From: Chromobacterium sphagni
GTDB lineage: Bacteria; Pseudomonadota; Gammaproteobacteria; Burkholderiales; Chromobacteriaceae
Assembly (NCBI RefSeq): GCF_001855555.1
Contig: NZ_MKCT01000001.1
Span: 62,001 to 126,000, forward strand
DNA: 64,000 bases
Direction of reading: 5' to 3'
The notes under the pieces were generated by a model. It was not told where the DNA came from, did not search any database, and saw nothing but the letters and a program-made list of their open reading frames with translations. The translations under genes and the position numbers were made by a program. Within the stretch, counting starts at the first letter, position 1, and each line of letters begins with the position of its first letter. This document shows positions 7,952 to 57,636 of the stretch, one piece after another.

Positions 7952-8860
7952 ATGAATGGCATGGACAGTTTGAGCGGCCTGTTGGCCTTTGTCCGCGCGG
8001 CGGAGCTGGGCAGTTTCGTCGCCGCGGGCGATCGTCTGGGCATTTCAGCCTCCGCGGTCAGCAAAAGCATCAGCCGCCTGGAAGACAAGCTGGCGGCGCG
8101 GCTGTTTCACCGCAGCACCCGCCGCATCAGTCTGACGCAGGAAGGTCTCCTGCTATTTGAACGCTGCCGCCGCATCATGGCGGAGCTGGAAGAGGCTTCG
8201 GCCGAACTGGCGCAGAATGCCGCTGCGCCTCGCGGTCGGCTGAAAGCCAGCTTGCCCTTGATCGGCCACCGCATGCTGTCGCCCCTGCTGCCGGAATTCC
8301 ACGCCCGCTACCCGGAGATCGAACTGGAGCTGGACTTCAGCGACCGCATGGTGGATCTGGTGGCAGAGGGATTCGATGTTGCGGTGCGTAGCGGCGAACT
8401 GAGCGACTCGAGGCTTCAGGCCAGGCTGCTGGGACCATTTCGTTTCATGCTGGTCGGCTCGCCCGGCTATTTCCACCGCCGCGGCCTGCCCCTGCATCCT
8501 GGAGATTTGCTTGACCATGCCTGCCTGCGCTACCGGTTTCCGTACAACGGCCAACTGCAGCTCTGGGCCTTGCGTCATATTGGCGATGTGGCAACGCCGC
8601 AACTGAGCCATTTCCTGACTTGCAACAGCATAGAAGCGCTGGTCGCCGCAGCCGCCGACGGCTTGGGCATTGCCTGGCTGCCCGACTTCGCGGTTGGCCG
8701 CGAACTGGCGGATGGCCGGTTGCTGCCCGTGCTGGAGAATTACGCCGCCGAACCGGGAAAGTTCTCCGCCGTCTGGCCCTCTAGCCGCCACCAGCCACCC
8801 AAATTGCGGGTATTCATCGACTTTCTGGCCGAGCGGCTTCTATCGCCAGCAAAACCGTGA
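7952..8860 (+). CDS. LysR-type transcriptional regulator
   Basis: A roughly 302-residue LTTR. The winged helix-turn-helix occupies residues 1-60 (LSGLLAFVRAAELGSFVAAG, SASAVSKSISRLEDKL, LFHRSTRRISLTQEG). The substrate-binding domain starts near residue 90 with PRGRLKASLPLIGHRMLSPL. The pattern DRMVDLVAEGFDVAVRSGEL places it in the CrgA/DmlR-like group. Starts at 7940, 7952 or 7961 are all possible because none has a good ribosome-binding site. It is transcribed away from the MFS exporter at 6322-7809, so the 130-base shared interval likely carries its operator. Confidence 0.88.
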   Translation: MNGMDSLSGLLAFVRAAELGSFVAAGDRLGISASAVSKSISRLEDKLAARLFHRSTRRISLTQEGLLLFERCRRIMAELEEASAELAQNAAAPRGRLKASLPLIGHRMLSPLLPEFHARYPEIELELDFSDRMVDLVAEGFDVAVRSGELSDSRLQARLLGPFRFMLVGSPGYFHRRGLPLHPGDLLDHACLRYRFPYNGQLQLWALRHIGDVATPQLSHFLTCNSIEALVAAAADGLGIAWLPDFAVGRELADGRLLPVLENYAAEPGKFSAVWPSSRHQPPKLRVFIDFLAERLLSPAKP

Positions 8861-9076
8861 TCGCACTTCCCGCGCAGAGAAATGCAATAGGAATATCATT
8901 ATTCCCGCAGAATGCCGCTCACGCGCTAAACTGGCCGCCATGCAGGCCCTCTGCAGCCGCTTCTACGCACCGCCGCCACATGGCTCAGGCATGCGCGCCG
9001 GCAAAGCTGAGCGGACCCATCATTACTACTCAGAGCCGAACCGCATGCCGGCGGCCCAAGCACTTCGTGATTGCAC

Positions 9077-10381
9077 ATGACTGACTCCCACTCCGCAACG
9101 CTTTCCCGCGCCGACTACCAGACTCTGGGCCTGGCGGCGCTGGGCGGCGCGCTGGAAATCTACGATTTCATCATCTTCGCCTTCTTCGCCACCACGCTGA
9201 GCAAGCTATTCTTCCCGCCGCACATGCCGGAATGGCTGCGCCTGCTGCAGACCTTCGGCATCTTCGCCACCGGCTACCTGGCCCGGCCGCTGGGCGGCAT
9301 CCTGATGGCCCACTTCGCCGATGTGCTCGGCCGCAAGCGCATCTTCAGCCTGACCATCCTGCTGATGGCCGGCCCCTGCCTGCTGATAGGCCTGCTCCCC
9401 ACCTATGCCGACATCGGCTACGCCGCCGCGCTGATCCTGCTGGCGCTGCGCATTTTGCAGGGGGCGGCGGTAGGGGGCGAGGTGCCCAGCGCCTGGTCCT
9501 TCGTCGCCGAGCATGCGCCGCTTAAGCGCCGCGGCTATGCGCTGGGTGTGCTGCAAGCCGGGCTGACCTTCGGCTACCTGCTGGGCGCGCTCACCGCTAC
9601 CCTGCTGGCGCGCGTTTTCACCCCGCAGGAAATGTTGGACTATGGCTGGCGCATTCCCTTCCTGCTGGGCGGGCCGTTCGGCCTGCTGGGCGTATGGCTG
9701 CGCCGCTGGCTCAACGAGACCCCCATCTTTCTGGCGATGCGCAGCCGCCAGGCCGAACAGGTTTCCTATCCCTTGTTGACGGTGATCCGGGAACACCGCG
9801 CCACCTTGCTGCCGGCGGCCCTGCTCACTTGCGTGCTCACCTCCGCGGTGGTGGTGCTGGTCGTGGTGACCCCCACACTGCTGCAACAACGCTTTGGCAT
9901 GAGCGCCGATCACGCCTTCGGCCTGAGCAGCATAGGCATCGTCTTCCTCAACATCGGCTGCGTCATCGCCGGCCACGCCTGCGACCGCATCGGCCAGCGC
10001 CGCAGCCTGGCGTTGTACAGCCTGCTGCTGCCACTGGGGATCGGCCTGCTGTACGCCTGCCTGATCGGCGGCTGGGGCTGGCCGGGACTTGCCTACGCGG
10101 TAGCCGGCCTGTGTTGCGGCATCGTCGGCGTGGTGCCCTCCATCATGGTCGGCATGTTCCCGGCCAGAGTGCGCGTTTCCGGCATCTCCTTCACCTACAA
10201 CATCGCCTACTCGATCTGGGCCAGCGTCACCCCGCTGCTGCTGATCGCCGCCATGCCGTGGAGCCCGTGGATCTGTGTGTTCTACTGCGCGCTGATGGCC
10301 GTTGTCGGCCTGTTCTGCGCTCGCCGCGCCCAGGCTGGCAAAACGCCGGCCCTGGATGAGGCGCTGTATCAGCAAGGCTGA
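9077..10381 (+). CDS. MFS metabolite:H+ symporter (MHS family)
   Basis: A 434-residue, 12-helix transporter of the MHS family (ProP, ShiA, KgtP, CitA relatives), importing an organic acid, betaine or similar solute with protons. The family N-terminus ALEIYDFIIFAFFAT is visible, as are the helix 2-3 loop LARPLGGILMAHFADVLGRK and the conserved RILQGAAVGGEVPSAWSF. The second half has the repeated loop IAGHACDRIGQRRSL. The ATG at 9077 is preferred over TTG 9071, though no strong ribosome-binding site is visible. It stands alone between a LysR gene and a DUF883 operon. The substrate is not determinable from the sequence. Confidence 0.88.
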   Translation: MTDSHSATLSRADYQTLGLAALGGALEIYDFIIFAFFATTLSKLFFPPHMPEWLRLLQTFGIFATGYLARPLGGILMAHFADVLGRKRIFSLTILLMAGPCLLIGLLPTYADIGYAAALILLALRILQGAAVGGEVPSAWSFVAEHAPLKRRGYALGVLQAGLTFGYLLGALTATLLARVFTPQEMLDYGWRIPFLLGGPFGLLGVWLRRWLNETPIFLAMRSRQAEQVSYPLLTVIREHRATLLPAALLTCVLTSAVVVLVVVTPTLLQQRFGMSADHAFGLSSIGIVFLNIGCVIAGHACDRIGQRRSLALYSLLLPLGIGLLYACLIGGWGWPGLAYAVAGLCCGIVGVVPSIMVGMFPARVRVSGISFTYNIAYSIWASVTPLLLIAAMPWSPWICVFYCALMAVVGLFCARRAQAGKTPALDEALYQQG

Positions 10382-51014: not shown

Positions 51015-51280
51015 TTTTTTCCCCTTTATTGGGTGTTTTTTACATCACGAAAAGTTATAAAGAACGCATTTGTCATGCGAATATAATTAATTGCATGAAC
51101 AAGCCATGATCGCAATCAATAAAATCCGCATCGTTGCAATAATTCCACATGTCATAAAAATGCCACTCGTTTCATAGCCAACATCGCTGGGCTATAGTGG
51201 GGTAGAATTTAAGGTTACCTGCGCTGGGTGAGACCGATCCCGGCGCGCCGTTGCAACCCTCGACTGTTTTTCGACGGACT

Positions 51281-51982
51281 ATGAATCAAGCATCTGAAAA
51301 GGCCCTGGTGGTTCTCTCCGGCGGCCAGGACTCCACCACCTGCCTGTACTGGGCGCTGCGGCGCTTCGGCGCCGGCAATGTGGAAGCTGTAACCTTCGAC
51401 TACGGCCAGCGCCACCGCGTCGAACTGGAGTGCGCCAGGAAAATCGCCGCCCTCGCCGGCGTGCGCCAGACCGTGCTCCCAATCGATACCTTCGCCGCCA
51501 TCGGCGGCAACGCGCTGACCGACGACAGCATCGCGCCGGAGTCCGGCGCGCGCGACGACGACGCGCTGCCCAACACCTTCGTGCCCGGCCGCAATCTGGT
51601 ATTCCTCACCTTCGCGGCCGCCTTCGGCTACACCCGCGGCGCCCGCCATCTGGTAGCAGGAGTCGCCCAGACCGACTACTCCGGCTACCCGGACTGCCGC
51701 GAAAACACGCTGAAGGCGCTGGAAGTGGCGCTGCGGCTGGGCATGGATAGCCGGGTGGAGCTGCATGCTCCGCTGATGTATCTATCCAAGGCTGAAACTG
51801 TGACGCTGGCGCAACAGGTAGGCGCCATGGACGCCCTGGCCTGGAGCCACACCTGTTACAACGGCGAGGTGCCGCCTTGCGGCCGCTGCGCGTCATGCGA
51901 GCTGCGCGCCAAAGGCTTCGCCGAAGTGGGCGTGGCCGACCCGCTGGTAGCGCGCTGCCAGGCGGAAGCGCAAGGAAACTGA
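51281..51982 (+). CDS. queC: 7-cyano-7-deazaguanine synthase
   Basis: QueC makes preQ0 from 7-carboxy-7-deazaguanine, ATP and ammonia in queuosine synthesis. The protein is 233 residues. The PP-loop is VVLSGGQDSTTCL (about residues 10-22). AVTFDYGQRHRVELE and FVPGRNLVFLTFAAAFGYTR match the family. The zinc site is the C-terminal CYNGEVPPCGRCASCELR cluster (four Cys). It is the first of queC-queD-queE, with queD starting one base after its stop. I see no preQ1 riboswitch in the leader at 51200-51280. Confidence 0.97.
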   Translation: MNQASEKALVVLSGGQDSTTCLYWALRRFGAGNVEAVTFDYGQRHRVELECARKIAALAGVRQTVLPIDTFAAIGGNALTDDSIAPESGARDDDALPNTFVPGRNLVFLTFAAAFGYTRGARHLVAGVAQTDYSGYPDCRENTLKALEVALRLGMDSRVELHAPLMYLSKAETVTLAQQVGAMDALAWSHTCYNGEVPPCGRCASCELRAKGFAEVGVADPLVARCQAEAQGN

Positions 51983-51983
51983 C

Positions 51984-53003
51984 ATGCACGCCTGTTACAT
52001 GATGGCCGACGCCGGCTTTGAAGCGGCGCGGCGGCTGCATGCCGCTCCTGGCCGCGAAGCCCGCCTGCATGGCCACAGCTTCCGCCTCAGCGCCCGCTGC
52101 GAAGCCCAATACACCGACCAGGCCGCGCTGCAGGCAGCGTTGCAAGCCGCTGTGGCGCCACTGGATTACGCCGACCTCAACGCCGTGCTGGCCGCCTGCG
52201 ACGACCTCGCCCTGGCTCGCCATGTGGCCCATGCCCTGCCCCATCCGGCAGCCATCAAGCTGCAAGGCGCGCCGGACCGCGGAGTGATGCTGGATGGCGC
52301 CCGGACACTGGTCTGGCTGAACGTGTCGTTCGAGGCCGCCCACTATCTGCCGCATGTGCCGGCGGGACACAAGTGCGGCCGCCTGCACGGCCATGGTTTC
52401 GGCGTGCGTCTGGCGGCCGATGCCGCCGGCTGCAGCCAGCATGATCTGGCACGCGCCTGGGCGCCGCTGCACCGCCGCCTCGACCAGCATTACCTCAACG
52501 ACATCGCCGGGCTGAACAATCCGACCAGCGAGGTGCTGGCGCACTGGCTGCATCAGCAGTTGCAAGGCGAGCTGCCGGGACTGGCCTGGGTGGAGGTGCG
52601 CGAGACGCACAGCGCCGGCAGCCAGTTCGACGGCCAACGCTTCCGCATCTGGAAAGAACAGCGCTTCGAAAGCGCCATGCCCTTCGACGCGGCCGGCAAC
52701 TACACCGGCCACAGCTATCTAGTGCGGCTGATGCTGGCCGGCGACATCGACCGCACCATGGGCTGGCTGCTGGATTTCGGCGATGTGAAGGACCGCTTCA
52801 AGCCCATCTACCGCCAGTTGGACCACAACCCGCTGGACAAGCTGTCCGGGCTGCGCAGCCGGGACAACGCCGCCGTGGCCGAGTGGATCCATGCCCAACT
52901 GTCGCCGCTGGTTCCGGAGCTGGCCCGCATCGACCTGATGGAAAACGAGCACGCCGGCGTGTCGCTGCACTTCAATCAGGACATGCGCTGGCCGCTGCTG
53001 TAA
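51984..53003 (+). CDS. queD: 6-carboxy-tetrahydropterin synthase-like, three tandem PTPS units
   Basis: QueD converts dihydroneopterin triphosphate to 6-carboxytetrahydropterin. Ordinary QueD is about 120 residues; this one is 339 and consists of three PTPS-like units. Unit 1 (about 5-105) has candidate zinc His H19, H29 and H31 but no catalytic Cys. Unit 2 (about 109-222) is canonical: H120, C131 in GHKCGRLHGHGF, H135 and H137, with a PTS-E-type motif NNPTSEVLAHWL. Unit 3 (about 230-339) keeps GHSYLVRLMLAG, WLLDFGDVKDRFKPIYRQLD and NEHAGVSLHF but lacks the Cys-His-Gly-His block. Probably only the middle unit is catalytic. AAGGAAA lies before the ATG. Confidence 0.9.
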   Translation: MHACYMMADAGFEAARRLHAAPGREARLHGHSFRLSARCEAQYTDQAALQAALQAAVAPLDYADLNAVLAACDDLALARHVAHALPHPAAIKLQGAPDRGVMLDGARTLVWLNVSFEAAHYLPHVPAGHKCGRLHGHGFGVRLAADAAGCSQHDLARAWAPLHRRLDQHYLNDIAGLNNPTSEVLAHWLHQQLQGELPGLAWVEVRETHSAGSQFDGQRFRIWKEQRFESAMPFDAAGNYTGHSYLVRLMLAGDIDRTMGWLLDFGDVKDRFKPIYRQLDHNPLDKLSGLRSRDNAAVAEWIHAQLSPLVPELARIDLMENEHAGVSLHFNQDMRWPLL

Positions 53004-53026
53004 GCCATCCACTTCGAGATACCGCT

Positions 53027-53662
53027 GTGACTACCTATACCGTCAAGGAAATCTTCTACACGCTGCAGGGCGAGGGCCGCCAGGCCGGTCGCGCCGCGGT
53101 GTTCTGCCGCTTCGCCGGCTGCAATCTATGGTCGGGCCGCGAGGAGGACCGCGGCAAGGCGGTCTGCCAGTTCTGCGATACCGACTTCGTCGGCACCGGC
53201 CCGGACGGCGGCAAGTTCAGCGGCGCGGCCAAGCTAGCGGCGCGTATCGCCAGCGAATGGCCCGAGGACGCAGGCGGCGTGCGCTACGTGGTGTGCACCG
53301 GCGGCGAGCCGCTGCTGCAACTCGACGAAGCGCTGATCCGCGCGCTGCACGCCGAGGGCTTTGAAGTGGCGGTGGAAACCAACGGCACCATCGCCGCGCC
53401 GGCCGGACTGGACTGGATCTGCGTCAGCCCCAAGGCGGGATCGGAGCTGAAGCAGCTGTCCGGCAACGAGCTGAAGCTGGTCTACCCGCAACAGGCGCAA
53501 CTGCCGGAAACCGTGTCCCATCTGGATTTCGACACCTTTTACCTGCAACCGATGGACGGGCCCGACATCGCCGCCAACACCCGCGCCGCCATCGAATACT
53601 GCATGGCCCACCCGAAATGGCGGCTGTCGGTGCAGACCCACAAGGTGGTGAATATCCGCTAA
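53027..53662 (+). CDS. queE: 7-carboxy-7-deazaguanine synthase (radical SAM)
   Basis: QueE rearranges 6-carboxytetrahydropterin to 7-carboxy-7-deazaguanine. The protein is 211 residues, starting with GTG at 53027. The N-terminus VKEIFYTLQGEGRQAGRAAV is diagnostic. The cluster Cys pattern is C-x14-C-x2-C (AGCNLWSG ... AVCQFCDTDF), the variant known for the Burkholderia enzyme rather than the classical C-x3-C-x2-C. VCTGGEPLLQLD and VETNGTIAAPAG are the SAM-binding motifs. It completes the queC-queD-queE operon and is followed by a hairpin terminator. Confidence 0.96.
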   Translation: MTTYTVKEIFYTLQGEGRQAGRAAVFCRFAGCNLWSGREEDRGKAVCQFCDTDFVGTGPDGGKFSGAAKLAARIASEWPEDAGGVRYVVCTGGEPLLQLDEALIRALHAEGFEVAVETNGTIAAPAGLDWICVSPKAGSELKQLSGNELKLVYPQQAQLPETVSHLDFDTFYLQPMDGPDIAANTRAAIEYCMAHPKWRLSVQTHKVVNIR

Positions 53663-53671
53663 AGGCCCAGT

Positions 53672-53697
53672 CAGGCCGTGCAATGCGGCCTGGCTTT
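53672..53697 (+). terminator. Terminator-like hairpin after queE
   Basis: CAGGCCG pairs with CGGCCTG across seven bases, followed by GCTTTCCCCC. It is ten bases after the queE stop; the T tract is short. Confidence 0.6.
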
Positions 53698-53996
53698 CCC
53701 CCTATCTCCTTCTCGCCACGCCAATTAGGTCAAACGGCCTGCGCATGCGATCTATGCGTCCATGATAAAGCGCACTATAACGACGGGAGCATCAACACCG
53801 GATGATATGTGGCAGTCGTCCGGCACGACGATCCTGGCGCGCTGGAATATTTTTTCCCCTCCCGCGTAAGAAAGCCGAAGACACCCCGACTCAACCTTTG
53901 TCAGGCGATGCTTCAGCCCACCAGGACTGTAATGACCCGCCACTTCCGGCGACCAATCGCCATTCACCGACTTGGTGAACTTCCCAGGAGAAAGCC
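53698..53996. promoter_or_regulatory. Upstream region of the bufferin operon
   Basis: About 300 bases with no supported gene. It must hold the promoter of the bufA-like genes. I could not identify a consensus sigma-70 promoter; related operons are often driven by ECF sigma factors, and no sigma factor gene is nearby in the window. AGGAGAAAG before 53997 is the ribosome-binding site. Confidence 0.4.
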
Positions 53997-54248
53997 ATGA
54001 ACCGCAACAAGACTCTGATCGCATCCGCACTCGGCGCCGTCATCGCCATGGGCGTACTGGCCAGCACCCCGGCGGCAGCGGCCGATAAAGACCCGTGTTT
54101 CGGCATCGCCAAGGCCGGCCAGAACGACTGCAAGAACGCCAGCCACGCCTGCGCGGGCCAGGCCAAAACGGACAATGACCCGACCGACTTCAAGCTGGTT
54201 CCAGCCGGCACTTGTCAGCAAATGGGCGGTCAAAGCAAGCCGATGTAA
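53997..54248 (+). CDS. bufA1: Bufferin precursor 1 (BufA1-like, DUF2282)
   Basis: An 83-residue exported precursor. A Sec signal peptide ([20 protein letters not shown], cleavage after TPAAA near residue 28) is followed by a 55-residue core. Its four cysteines are at [21 protein letters not shown] and GTCQQMGG. This is the DUF2282/BufA pattern: Cys-containing peptides modified to 5-thiooxazole by the MNIO enzyme BufB and thought to bind copper in the periplasm. It is first in a five-gene operon. A second, similar precursor follows 92 bases downstream. The role is by homology to described bufferins. Confidence 0.9.
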
Positions 54249-54340
54249 TTTTCCCTGGTGGCAACCCCAGCCACTTTGATTACCATACGTTCACCGCCCG
54301 GCAGCTTCGCCTGCCGGGCCATACCACCCAGGAGTCAGAC

Positions 54341-54604
54341 ATGAACCAGAACAAAGCCCTCATCGCATCCGCGCTCGGCGCCGTCATCGCCATGGGCGTC
54401 CTCACCGCCGCTCCGGCGTCCGCCGCAGACAAGGAAAAGTGTTACGGCATCGCCCAGGCGGGCAAGAACGACTGCGCCTCCGCCACCGGCGCCCATTCCT
54501 GCGCCGGCCAGGCCAAGACGGACAAGGACCCGGGCGACTGGAAATACGTGGCCAAGGGCAGTTGCGAAAAGATGGGCGGCAGCACGGCCGTCAAAAAAAA
54601 CTAA
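54341..54604 (+). CDS. bufA2: Bufferin precursor 2 (BufA1-like paralogue)
   Basis: An 87-residue paralogue of the preceding gene. The signal peptide is nearly the same ([20 protein letters not shown]). The four cysteines align ([29 protein letters not shown]), with two extra residues between the second and third. Conserved GIAxAGxNDC and [11 protein letters not shown] segments show recent duplication, with divergence concentrated in the linker. A hairpin (GCCCGGCAG/CTGCCGGGC, 54296-54319) lies between the two genes and could stabilise or uncouple the transcripts. Both cores would be substrates of the downstream BufB-BufC. Confidence 0.9.
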
Positions 54605-54665
54605 GCCTGACCGCAACAAGCCCGCTTCCCGGCGGGCTGTCCTCCCGCCCTACAGGAAGTCATCG

Positions 54666-55490
54666 ATGTCCATCCTGCCCAATGTCTGTGGCATAGGCCT
54701 GCGCGCCCCGCACTACCGCGAAACGCTGGAAACCCTGCCGCCGCTGGGCTGGGTTGAGGTGCATAGTGAAAACTTCTTCGATGGCGGCACGCCGCTCGCC
54801 ATGCTCAGACGCGTGGCCGCCCACTGGCCGCTGTCGCTGCATGGCGTCGGCCTGGGCCTGGGCTCCTGTCCCCGCCCCGACGCCGCACACCTGGCGTCGC
54901 TGAAGCGGCTGGTGGACGAGCTCAATCCAGCATCCATCTCCGAGCACCTGTCGTTCAACCATTCGCCGCTGCGCTACGTCAACGATCTGCTGCCCGTTCC
55001 GTACACCCGCGCCGCGCTCGACGCGATCGCCGGCCATGTGGCGGAAACCCAGGACACGCTGCAGCGCCGCATCCTGCTGGAAAACCTGTCCAGCTACGTC
55101 GAGTTTCCCGGCAATGAAATGAACGAGGGCGAATTCCTGGCTGAATTGGTGCGCACCACCGGTTGCGGCATCCTGCTGGACGTCAACAATCTCTACGTCA
55201 ACCGCGTCAATCTCGGCACCGACACCCGCGCGGTGCTGGCGGCCCTGCCCGCCGACGCGATAGGTGAAATCCACCTGGCCGGCTACAGCGAGCGCGAGGG
55301 CCTGCTGGTGGACACCCACAGCCAGCCGGTGCATGACGGCGTCTGGCAATTCTTCCGCGAAGTGATCGCGCAGATCGGCCCGCGGCCGACCCTGATCGAA
55401 TGGGACATGGAGATTCCACCGCTGGCGGTGCTGCTGGACGAGGCCGCCAAGGCGCAAGCGATACTGGAGGCCCGCCATGAATTGGCATGA
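54666..55490 (+). CDS. bufB: BufB, multinuclear non-heme iron oxidative enzyme (DUF692)
   Basis: A 274-residue MNIO enzyme with a TIM-barrel fold that oxidises Cys residues of bufferin precursors using O2. Family signatures are GIGLRAPHYRETLETLPPLG, VEVHSENFFDGG, LHGVGLGLGS, EHLSFNHSPLRYV, LLENLSSYVEF, GILLDVNNLYVN, EIHLAGYSER and LVDTHSQPVHDGVW. These carry the His, Asp and Glu ligands of the iron cluster. AGGAAG precedes the ATG. It follows the two precursors by about 60 bases and overlaps bufC by 14 bases, so the enzyme and its partner are translationally coupled. Confidence 0.95.
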   Translation: MSILPNVCGIGLRAPHYRETLETLPPLGWVEVHSENFFDGGTPLAMLRRVAAHWPLSLHGVGLGLGSCPRPDAAHLASLKRLVDELNPASISEHLSFNHSPLRYVNDLLPVPYTRAALDAIAGHVAETQDTLQRRILLENLSSYVEFPGNEMNEGEFLAELVRTTGCGILLDVNNLYVNRVNLGTDTRAVLAALPADAIGEIHLAGYSEREGLLVDTHSQPVHDGVWQFFREVIAQIGPRPTLIEWDMEIPPLAVLLDEAAKAQAILEARHELA

Positions 55491-56241
55491 CTGGCAAAGC
55501 GCATTGCTGGAGGCGATTGCCGACCCCGCCCAGCAAGAGCCTCCCGCCGGGTTGCAGCTGCGGGCCGCCGGACTGGCGGTATACCGCAACAACTACCGGG
55601 TCGGCCTGATCGACGCGCTGTCCCACAGCCACCCGGTTTGCCTGCAGCTGGTGGGAGAGGAGTTCTTCACCGCGCTGGCGCGCAAATACGTCAAGGGCCA
55701 CGCTTCGCACAGCGGCAATCTGCACCTGTACGGCGATGCCTTCGCCGATTTCATCGCCGGTTTCGCACACTGCCGCGACCTGCCCTACCTGGCCGATGTC
55801 GCCCGCCTGGAATGGGCGGTGCACCGCAGCTACTACGCCGCCGACATCCAGCCGCTAGACAGCGGCGCGCTGGCTGCCATCGCTCCGGAACAATGGGACC
55901 AGCTCTGCTTCACACCCTTGCCGGACGTGGCGCTATGCCCCGCCGCCACTCCGGCGGCCAGCATCTGGCTCGCGCACCGCGATGGCGGCTCGCTGGAAGG
56001 CATTTTGCAGCGACCGGCGGAAAACACCCTGGTGCTGCGCCGGCATGGCGAGATCCAGATGCTGGCGCTGGATCCGGCCCGCCACGCTTTTTACGCCGCG
56101 CTGTTCAAGCGGCAACCGCTGGGGAACGCCATCGGCCCGGCCCTGCAGCTCGATGAAGGCTTCGATCTGCAGGCCGCCTTGCTCGGCCTGTTTCAGCCAC
56201 CCCTGCTCTCCGCCATCCACTTGCAAGGCTCAAGCACATGA
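55477..56241 (+). CDS. bufC: BufC, DUF2063 partner protein of BufB
   Basis: A 254-residue protein of the DUF2063 family, the usual partner of DUF692 enzymes. The N-terminal helical domain (about 1-100) reads MNWHDWQSALLEAIADPAQQ, AVYRNNYRVGLIDALSHSHP and FTALARKYVKGHASHSGNLH. The C-terminal half is RRE-like and would recognise the precursor peptide. The start overlaps bufB by 14 bases and the stop overlaps the DoxX gene by four, indicating tight coupling. The role in substrate recognition is known from the family, not shown here. Confidence 0.92.
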   Translation: MNWHDWQSALLEAIADPAQQEPPAGLQLRAAGLAVYRNNYRVGLIDALSHSHPVCLQLVGEEFFTALARKYVKGHASHSGNLHLYGDAFADFIAGFAHCRDLPYLADVARLEWAVHRSYYAADIQPLDSGALAAIAPEQWDQLCFTPLPDVALCPAATPAASIWLAHRDGGSLEGILQRPAENTLVLRRHGEIQMLALDPARHAFYAALFKRQPLGNAIGPALQLDEGFDLQAALLGLFQPPLLSAIHLQGSST

Positions 56242-56711
56242 ACAAACCCCTCCAAGCTCCCGTATGCGCCTATCAGCTGTTGATCCGCGCCGGCAATCTG
56301 CTGCAGCCGCTGGTGCTGCTGTTGCTGCGGCTGTGGATCGCCCATGTCTTCTTCAGCTCCGGCCTGACCAAGATCGCCGACTGGGACGTGACTCTGGCCT
56401 TGTTCACCGACGAATACCATGTACCGCTGCTGCCGCCGGCCGTGGCCGCGGTGATGGCCACCTGCGGCGAACTGGGCCTGTCTTCCTTGCTGGCATTCGG
56501 GTTGGGCGGACGCTTCGCCGCCGCCGGCCTGTTCATTCTCAACGCTGTCGCCGTCATCAGCTATCCGGACCTGACCGAAGCCACGCGCCAGTTCCACTAT
56601 TTCTGGGGCGCGCAGATCCTGGTGCTGCTAGCCTTCGGCCCCGGCCTGGTGTCGCTGGACCGACTGGTTCAATGGTGGCTGCAAAAGCGCGGCGGCCATT
56701 CCCAGAGCTGA
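56238..56711 (+). CDS. DoxX-family membrane protein of the bufferin operon
   Basis: A 157-residue, four-helix DoxX protein. Helices lie near residues 20-40 (LLQPLVLLLLRLWIAHVFFS), 67-90, 95-115 and 122-140 (FHYFWGAQILVLLAFGPGLV). The motif FFSSGLTKIADWDVTLALF is typical. DoxX genes commonly close bufABC operons, where an electron-transfer or quinol-linked role has been suggested. ATG 56238 overlaps the bufC stop by four bases. Confidence 0.9.
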   Translation: MNKPLQAPVCAYQLLIRAGNLLQPLVLLLLRLWIAHVFFSSGLTKIADWDVTLALFTDEYHVPLLPPAVAAVMATCGELGLSSLLAFGLGGRFAAAGLFILNAVAVISYPDLTEATRQFHYFWGAQILVLLAFGPGLVSLDRLVQWWLQKRGGHSQS

Positions 56712-56787
56712 CAAAACCCGGTTGCGGAGCGGAAAACGGTAAAAGACGTGGCATAATAAAGCAAACCACCCTGATGCCGATCGCACA

Positions 56788-57636
56788 ATGAGCACACTGA
56801 AAACCCTGGTAGTACTCGCTCCGCAACCGGACCCCCAGCACATCACCGACATCGCCCATCTGGCGGAGGCCCCGCATCTGGACCACCCCGGCGCCGATAT
56901 CGTGCGCATGCGCGGAGCCAAAGCGGAACGCCGCCAGGAAGTGATCGCGCTGTGCCACCGTCACGGCTACGACGCCGCCTACATCGACAACGGCAAGCAT
57001 CTGGGCGACTTCCGCCTGCTGGTGTCCGACATGGACTCCACGTTGATCAATATCGAGTGCATAGACGAAATCGCCGACATCAAGGGCATCAAGCCGCAGG
57101 TGGCGGAGATTACGGAAAGGGCGATGCGCGGCGAACTGGACTTTTCCGCCGCGCTGCAGGAAAGGGTGGCGCTGCTGGCAGGCCTGCCGGAATCGGCATT
57201 GGAACAGGTGTACCGCGAGCGGCTGCGGCTCAATCCCGGCGCGGAGCAGCTGCTGTCGGCCTGCCGCAGGCTGGGTATCAAGACCCTGCTGGTGTCCGGC
57301 GGCTTCACCTATTTCACCGACAGGCTGAAAGCCGACTACGGCCTGGACTACGCCTACGCCAACCAGCTGGAAATCGTCGATGGCCGTCTGACCGGCCGCC
57401 TGAGCGGCGAGATCATCGACGCCGTCGCCAAGAAACAGCTGCTGATGGCGACCCGCTCCGCGCTCAAGCTGAAGCCGGAGCAGGTGATGGCTGTCGGCGA
57501 CGGCGCCAACGACTTGCCGATGCTGCAAGAGGCCGGCACCGGCGTCGCCTATCACGCCAAACCCAGGGTCAGCGCCGCAGCCGACATCGCCATCGAGCAC
57601 GGCGGCCTGGACGCCATCCTGCAGCTGTATCACTGA
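56788..57636 (+). CDS. serB: Phosphoserine phosphatase
   Basis: SerB removes phosphate from phosphoserine, the last step of serine synthesis. The protein is 282 residues. An N-terminal ACT-like segment (1-70) precedes the HAD domain. HAD motif I is LVSDMDSTLINIECIDEIAD (nucleophile D near 79), motif II LLVSGGFTYFTDRLKADYGL and motif III/IV MAVGDGANDLPML. Length and domain order match bacterial SerB. It starts about 75 bases after the DoxX gene with its own leader; a -10-like TAATAA sequence is present near 56755. Confidence 0.96.
   Translation: MSTLKTLVVLAPQPDPQHITDIAHLAEAPHLDHPGADIVRMRGAKAERRQEVIALCHRHGYDAAYIDNGKHLGDFRLLVSDMDSTLINIECIDEIADIKGIKPQVAEITERAMRGELDFSAALQERVALLAGLPESALEQVYRERLRLNPGAEQLLSACRRLGIKTLLVSGGFTYFTDRLKADYGLDYAYANQLEIVDGRLTGRLSGEIIDAVAKKQLLMATRSALKLKPEQVMAVGDGANDLPMLQEAGTGVAYHAKPRVSAAADIAIEHGGLDAILQLYH

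Follow-up and report, generated by a model that had tools for sequence, protein, structure and literature searches.

Why should a bufferin operon carry two precursor genes for a single maturation enzyme, and how is it switched on when no regulator lies beside it? Both questions are raised by an operon of Chromobacterium sphagni at positions 53997-56711 of the 64,000 nucleotides analyzed here (forward strand of contig NZ_MKCT01000001.1; hereafter the window, to which all operon coordinates refer), which holds two paralogous bufferin precursors. Our analysis suggests that this two-precursor operon probably makes two related copper-binding peptides via one shared enzyme, and that it is probably switched on by a stress-type extracytoplasmic function (ECF) sigma factor encoded elsewhere in the genome.

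Two precursors and one maturation enzyme

The operon consists of five genes on the forward strand. Its two precursors, A1 (53997..54248, 83 residues) and A2 (54341..54604, 87 residues), match the DUF2282 family (PF10048) with 79.4 and 86.2 bits, respectively, both above the cut-off of 22.4 bits, and each has exactly four Cys in an identical order. They are followed by bufB (54666..55490, 274 residues), which encodes the MNIO bufferin maturase (PF05114, 337.5 bits; NCBIfam MNIO_BufB, NF050167, 348.5 bits, cut-off 310), by bufC for the DUF2063 partner protein (55477..56241, 254 residues; PF09836, 85.3 bits) and by doxX for a DoxX membrane protein (56238..56711, 157 residues; PF07681, 61.4 bits), the last two also exceeding their Pfam cut-offs. 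With the HvfC and HvfX models BufC and DoxX score 44.2 and 51.7 bits, under the cut-offs of 142 and 80, respectively. Gaps of 92 bp separate A1 from A2 and 61 bp A2 from bufB, while bufB and bufC overlap by 14 bp and bufC and doxX by 4 bp. An earlier note on this DNA had described two adjacent DUF2282 precursors with aligned four-Cys cores ahead of BufB, BufC and DoxX, all overlapping or tightly spaced, and the domain scores, the Cys order and the spacing bear out this description.

Both precursors have N-termini that, read by eye only, look like Sec-type signal peptides, with a basic start, a hydrophobic stretch and an A-x-A ahead of the core. With a limit of E 0.001, we found no further DUF2282 match and no second MNIO (PF05114) in this genome, which comprises 4.74 Mb in 104 contigs. 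As bufB is the sole MNIO match, its product must act on both A1 and A2 if each of them is modified. In alignments, BufB shares conserved motifs of His, Glu, Asp and Asn with MbnB and with the solved MNIO 3bww, and we take the metal ligands to lie among the residues of these motifs. Searches of the PDB gave no match for the A1 precursor at E up to 1, and two insignificant matches only for BufC. Near the conserved EWD motif BufB has a Met here (EWDMEIPPL), at a position where the 17 further BufB proteins of Chromobacterium that were read have Leu.

Conservation and divergence of the precursor pair

The A1/A2 pair is a conserved arrangement and no stray duplicate. DUF2282 is present in 57 of the 61 genomes of the family that were searched. 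Two precursor copies are found in 18 of the 19 Chromobacterium genomes and in all 10 genomes of a sister genus (g2), and an adjacent pair occurs in only one (G047) of the remaining 32 family genomes. The genus has one single-precursor genome, G024 (L046), in which ~1 kb separates the precursor from bufB. An order-wide draw of 160 genomes gave 61 with DUF2282; outside the family, five of the 56 DUF2282-bearing genomes (G082, G120, G157, G163 and G209; counted by hand) have copies less than 1 kb apart on one strand. Tandem bufferin precursors have already been reported in general, as section 14 of PMC12452194 describes. Since pairs recur in other families of the order, tandem precursors are a recurrent, known arrangement.

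Judged by their substitution patterns, A1 and A2 are each under purifying selection. The ratio of nonsynonymous to synonymous substitution rates (dN/dS) in the mature part is 0.13 for A1 (13 sequences) and 0.15 for the A2-type copies (19 sequences), and it is 0.10 and 0.08 for the two g2 copies (10 sequences each). The four Cys columns are invariant in each of the four orthologue sets, and these low ratios and invariant Cys rule out A1 as a decaying duplicate. Within a genome, the two precursors resemble each other more in their putative signal peptides than in their mature parts. The nucleotide identities are 0.79 versus 0.68 in the window, and the five further genomes included in the comparison show the same trend.

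In the precursor tree A1 (99/99), the g2 first copies (100/97) and a third type, A3 (100/100), each form one clade. In the best tree A1 groups with the g2 first copies (B1) at 64/83 over 87 columns, which does not show a single duplication before the split of Chromobacterium and g2. The A3 lineage (G011, G014, G015, G016 and G023; L033, L036, L037, L038 and L045) has an A2-like copy first and a distinct A3 second. A3 carries HYCAG around the third Cys, the intergenic gap in this lineage is 158-163 bp, and this gap carries long inverted repeats in the four of its genomes that were folded (all but G011).

The two copies also differ right beside a central Cys. According to a figure legend of PMC12452194, the modification is on the central two Cys of a bufferin, while a disulphide joins the outer two. 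A Lys stands behind the first central Cys (Cys2, in NDCK) in all 13 A1 copies of Chromobacterium, and behind the second central Cys, i.e. the third Cys, in all 10 first copies of g2. None of the companion copies in these 23 pairs has Lys after a central Cys; the A2 of the window has Ala behind both. Such a Lys is found in 4 of the 32 precursors of other genera, and in none of the three copies formed by the G047 pair and the single precursor of G024.

Predicted promoter and candidate remote sigma factor

Alignment of the upstream regions of the genus revealed a predicted ECF sigma promoter, GTAAGAA-N14-CGAC (-35 and -10), at 53866..53890 on the forward strand. It begins 131 bp ahead of the start codon of A1 and has a T-rich stretch immediately upstream. 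The strict motif lies ahead of the first precursor in all 18 two-precursor Chromobacterium genomes and all 10 g2 genomes. It does not precede any second precursor among the 27 that the scan covered (28 exist; that of G011 was left out). The g2 genomes (G001-G010) have two tandem motif copies ahead of the first precursor, ~124-139 bp apart. For the family as a whole we used 56 of the 57 precursor-bearing genomes (G050 was left out), and GTAA-N17-CGAC is found within 300 bp of the first precursor in 46 of them at spacing 17, compared with 0 to 3 genomes at every other spacing from 10 to 24. In 200 mononucleotide shuffles the same pattern turned up in 0.22 genomes on average and in 3 at most.

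The strict motif occurs twice in this genome, ahead of the bufferin operon and 100 bp before msrB. By its sequence the msrB site is present in all 13 A1-lineage genomes, 11 times as the strict motif and twice as a GTAAGC variant. We read the msrB upstream regions at 29 of the 30 loci listed (G024 was left out); the site is not in G035 but is found again in G045 and, judged by coordinates, in G047. In G045 the match to msrB (G045:C19:366013-366396) has one TGA within its frame.

A candidate for the sigma factor lies away from the operon, which is on contig C1. An ECF sigma gene, followed by the gene for a 59-residue ZAS anti-sigma, is found at the end of contig C63 (about 8656-9226, minus strand; L101 in this genome, G000), and the gene upstream of it is presumably radA. 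The C-terminal 142 residues of the sigma score 205.9 bits with TIGR02943 and an intact relative scores 281.5 bits, the cut-off being 162.2. The anti-sigma passes the NCBIfam antisigmaE model (NF052368) with 71.8 bits against a cut-off of 50, and it has the ZAS pattern C5, H31-x3-C35-x2-C38 (hand-counted). Presence of a sigma homologue (at least 50% identity) and presence of the motif agree in 54 of the 56 genomes, 46 having both and 8 neither (Fisher p 5.6e-8, uncorrected for shared ancestry). The two discordant genomes are G046, with the sigma and no motif, and G057, with the motif and no sigma found in its 330 contigs. G024 is among the eight genomes with neither, its best sigma match having 34% identity. 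The earlier note was right that neither an ECF sigma factor nor a copper regulator lies next to the operon. Its statement that control is unknown is superseded by the conserved ECF-type promoter predicted here and the matching remote sigma/anti-sigma pair as its candidate regulators.

Other controllers were considered and set aside. SigF/NrsF was considered first because it governs the bufferins of Caulobacter; NrsF (PF06532) has 0 matches in this genome, with the Caulobacter control positive, and the promoter differs. Further sigma-like matches are also present in the genome, and an RpoE-like gene on contig C79 is not favored, since the motif departs from GGAACTT, the sigma-E consensus of E. 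coli. Ordinary sigma-70 control was rejected, as a scan gave no promoter-like site on the forward strand in 53600-56850. There was no Rfam match to a riboswitch or other known RNA at E up to 1.

Stem-loops and flanking genes

Each precursor is followed by a G+C-rich stem-loop on the forward strand, with a 9 bp stem at 54296..54319 between A1 and A2 (p 0.02) and an 8 bp stem at 54619..54638 between A2 and bufB (p 0.04, both p values against 100 mononucleotide shuffles). The former is the hairpin that the earlier note had placed between the precursors, while the latter was absent from it. The longest stem reaches at least 8 bp after A1 in 10 of the 13 A1-type genomes, with variable sequence, and after A2 in all 13; in g2 this is the case in 6 of 10 genomes after the first precursor and in 6 of 10 after the second. 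Classical intrinsic terminators were ruled out, since neither stem-loop has a T tail and a terminator scan found none on the forward strand. The recurrence of the stems and the lack of a terminator-like site on this strand suggest that they may stabilize the precursor mRNA.

The operon is flanked by 51251-53662, with a radical SAM protein at 53027-53659, and by 56788-57636, which encodes a HAD-family phosphatase. We take the upstream genes to belong to queuosine biosynthesis and the phosphatase to be SerB-like.

Proposed mechanism and alternative explanations

Taken as a whole, our favored reading, to which we give a probability of about 70%, is that two selected bufferin products are made under the control of a redox-type ECF sigma factor, which is encoded remotely and recruits methionine repair as well. 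The genes, the conservation of the pair, the selection on it, the motif and its co-occurrence with the sigma gene are read from the sequences. The ECF sigma would start one transcript at 53866-53890, giving two Sec-exported peptides as well as BufB and BufC. BufBC would take the similar signal peptides as leader and oxidize the two central Cys of each peptide, the product presumably being 5-thiooxazoles, as the family would have it, and both modified peptides would then be exported to the periplasm, where they would chelate copper. A2 would be an ordinary bufferin, and A1 a diverged, selected second product, whose Lys may alter the Cys modification or the metal binding at that site. The stem-loops behind each precursor would probably let the precursor mRNA outlast the enzyme mRNA. 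The TIGR02943-type sigma and the ZAS anti-sigma probably also drive msrB in the A1-bearing Chromobacterium genomes, and the inducing signal is hence probably a stress of the thiol/oxidant or metal kind, with sensing in the cytoplasm as in the proposal for the Neisseria sigma-E/MseR. In this scheme we infer the modification, the copper binding, the contact of sigma and promoter, and the inducer.

A number of observations weigh against our favored reading. The five A3-lineage pairs have no Lys difference (0 of 10 copies), and the Lys rule is thus limited to 23 of the 28 pairs. According to PMC13097082, a different MNIO, FonBC, was blocked when a charged residue followed the Cys, and the modification of A1 might hence be incomplete. 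Over the 19 genomes of the genus the strict motif has 38 matches and the reversed control also 38 (2 versus 1 in this genome); as the genome-wide counts are not above the control, the motif argument rests on position and conservation. Sorted by coordinates, the 38 matches comprise 18 ahead of the bufferin operon, 11 ahead of msrB and 3 within the coding sequence of the sigma factor. The remaining 6 lie elsewhere, and one of them (G012, contig C199) falls inside a long open frame. The msrB site is found in one of the five A3-lineage genomes, as a variant, and at none of the nine g2 loci read. The sigma gene of this assembly is split across two reading frames at a T run near the contig end, while the frames are open in the homologues whose frame was visible; the split may be an assembly error, a real loss or phase variation. 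No motif was seen among the sigma upstream regions listed, that of this genome lying beyond the contig end. The -10 element, finally, is CGACT here versus CGTCT in Neisseria.

Among the alternatives, the one that survives best is that the operon responds mainly to oxidants or gold and not to copper. The sharing of the motif with msrB would fit this, as would the H. influenzae RpoE2, described in PMC7907618 as an activator of msrAB with a link to the hypochlorite response. It is, however, at odds with the finding that Caulobacter Buf1 boosts growth in copper excess (section 21 of PMC12452194), and we regard it as possible, though on the unlikely side.

A1 could also be a partial substrate, the Lys blocking its site so that A1 is exported singly modified or unmodified, either as a plain thiol peptide or as a copper hand-off partner of A2. 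The block of FonBC by charged residues points in this direction, and PMC12452194, in the sections covered, raises the idea of unmodified precursors with a different purpose. Yet FonBC acts on a different precursor class, DUF2282 precursors are variable around their Cys, and the substrates of MNIO enzymes are reported to include a Cys-Lys class. This explanation seems rather doubtful to us. We hold our own broader speculation to be just as doubtful, i.e. that most Chromobacterium species examined and g2 make a two-component bufferin of Cys-Ala and Cys-Lys peptides with one enzyme. These would be two metallophores of different chemistry, e.g. one with a free thiol handing on copper, under a remote redox-sensing sigma that in Chromobacterium would also call on methionine repair; the Lys comes after the second Cys in Chromobacterium and after the third in g2.

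If dose alone mattered, the second precursor gene would be kept for more of the same bufferin and the differences would be neutral. A1 and A2 do share family, the four Cys, promoter and enzyme, and the five pairs without a Lys difference fit such a view. It does not sit well with a Lys beside a central Cys in 23 of 23 A1-type first copies and 0 of 23 companions, with mature parts only 68% identical at the DNA level in the window, with the low dN/dS in each copy or with the separate A1 clade, and we find it improbable. The earlier note had offered two products of different metal preference or dose; the idea of two products gains from the residue after a central Cys, which differs in 23 of 28 pairs, and from the purifying selection on each copy, whereas dose only fits poorly with a fixed difference, and its interpretation as a whole is partly supported. 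Least likely is that GTAA-N17-CGAC is the operator of an activator or repressor and not a sigma promoter, for although the equal counts in the reversed control would suit an operator, the two unlike half-sites stand at a fixed -35/-10 distance, the architecture is near the Neisseria sigma-E consensus as given in the passages used, and the presence of the site tracks the ECF sigma gene across the family.

Our favored reading of two products under a remote sigma bears on a question left open in the sections of PMC12452194 covered here, i.e. whether several precursors are modified by a single pair of MNIO and partner. The operon offers a natural comparison within itself, as A1 and A2 share the enzyme, the promoter and similar signal peptides and differ beside the likely target Cys. 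The apparent tie of DUF2282 bufferins to a Neisseria-like sigma-E/ZAS stress regulon would also give a testable answer to how such an operon is switched on with no adjacent regulator. No paper on the Chromobacterium bufferin operon or its regulon was among the literature matches listed, in which few subscription papers are covered.

Comparison with known systems

The Caulobacter Buf1 cluster (CC3254-3257) has a DUF2282 precursor, an MNIO, a DUF2063 protein and DoxX in the same order as here, and its precursor likewise has four Cys; it also has a signal peptide, which A1 and A2, read by eye, seem to share. The operon of the window differs in having two precursors and no NrsF match, and its promoter is not the GTAACC-N16-CGAA of Caulobacter. 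Buf2 (BufA2) shows a weak likeness only, with 31.5 and 27 bits for NF050166 under a cut-off of 60, and the precursors here have four Cys and not six or twelve. With its Cys-Lys, A1 is reminiscent of the Cys-Lys class of substrates.

Clusters with more than one precursor gene per MNIO, as here, are briefly mentioned in sections 14 and 21 of PMC12452194. The kind, i.e. a tandem-precursor bufferin cluster, is already known, and the conservation of the pair and its probable remote control are what we add to the earlier note. Compared with the clusters in those sections, the pair here is kept across a genus and its sister genus, in most cases with a fixed difference beside a likely target Cys.

In regulation the operon appears to resemble the Neisseria sigma-E/MseR system and not SigF/NrsF. 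The Neisseria regulon (NMB2140-2145 plus msrA/B) likewise has an ECF sigma with a ZAS anti-sigma, a GTAAG -35 and a CGnCT -10 element. Its sigma-E is presumably also a TIGR02943 member, and we take NMB2141-2143 to be an MNIO, its partner and an EGKCG-type precursor (a gonophorin cluster). The passages on the regulon that we used call NMB2141-2143 hypothetical. The targets that they give include, as here, a methionine sulfoxide reductase and an operon containing a DoxX-like gene, and the consensus is GTMAGBWTT (-35) and CGTCTAAH (-10) with a spacer of 12-13; counted in this way our site is GTAAGAAAG-N12-CGACTCAA. In the same passages the Neisseria sigma gene lies inside its own autoregulated operon, while the sigma and anti-sigma genes here are away from the bufferin operon. 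The meningococcal MseR has C4, H30-x3-C34-x2-C37 there, versus C5, H31-x3-C35-x2-C38 in the anti-sigma of C. sphagni.

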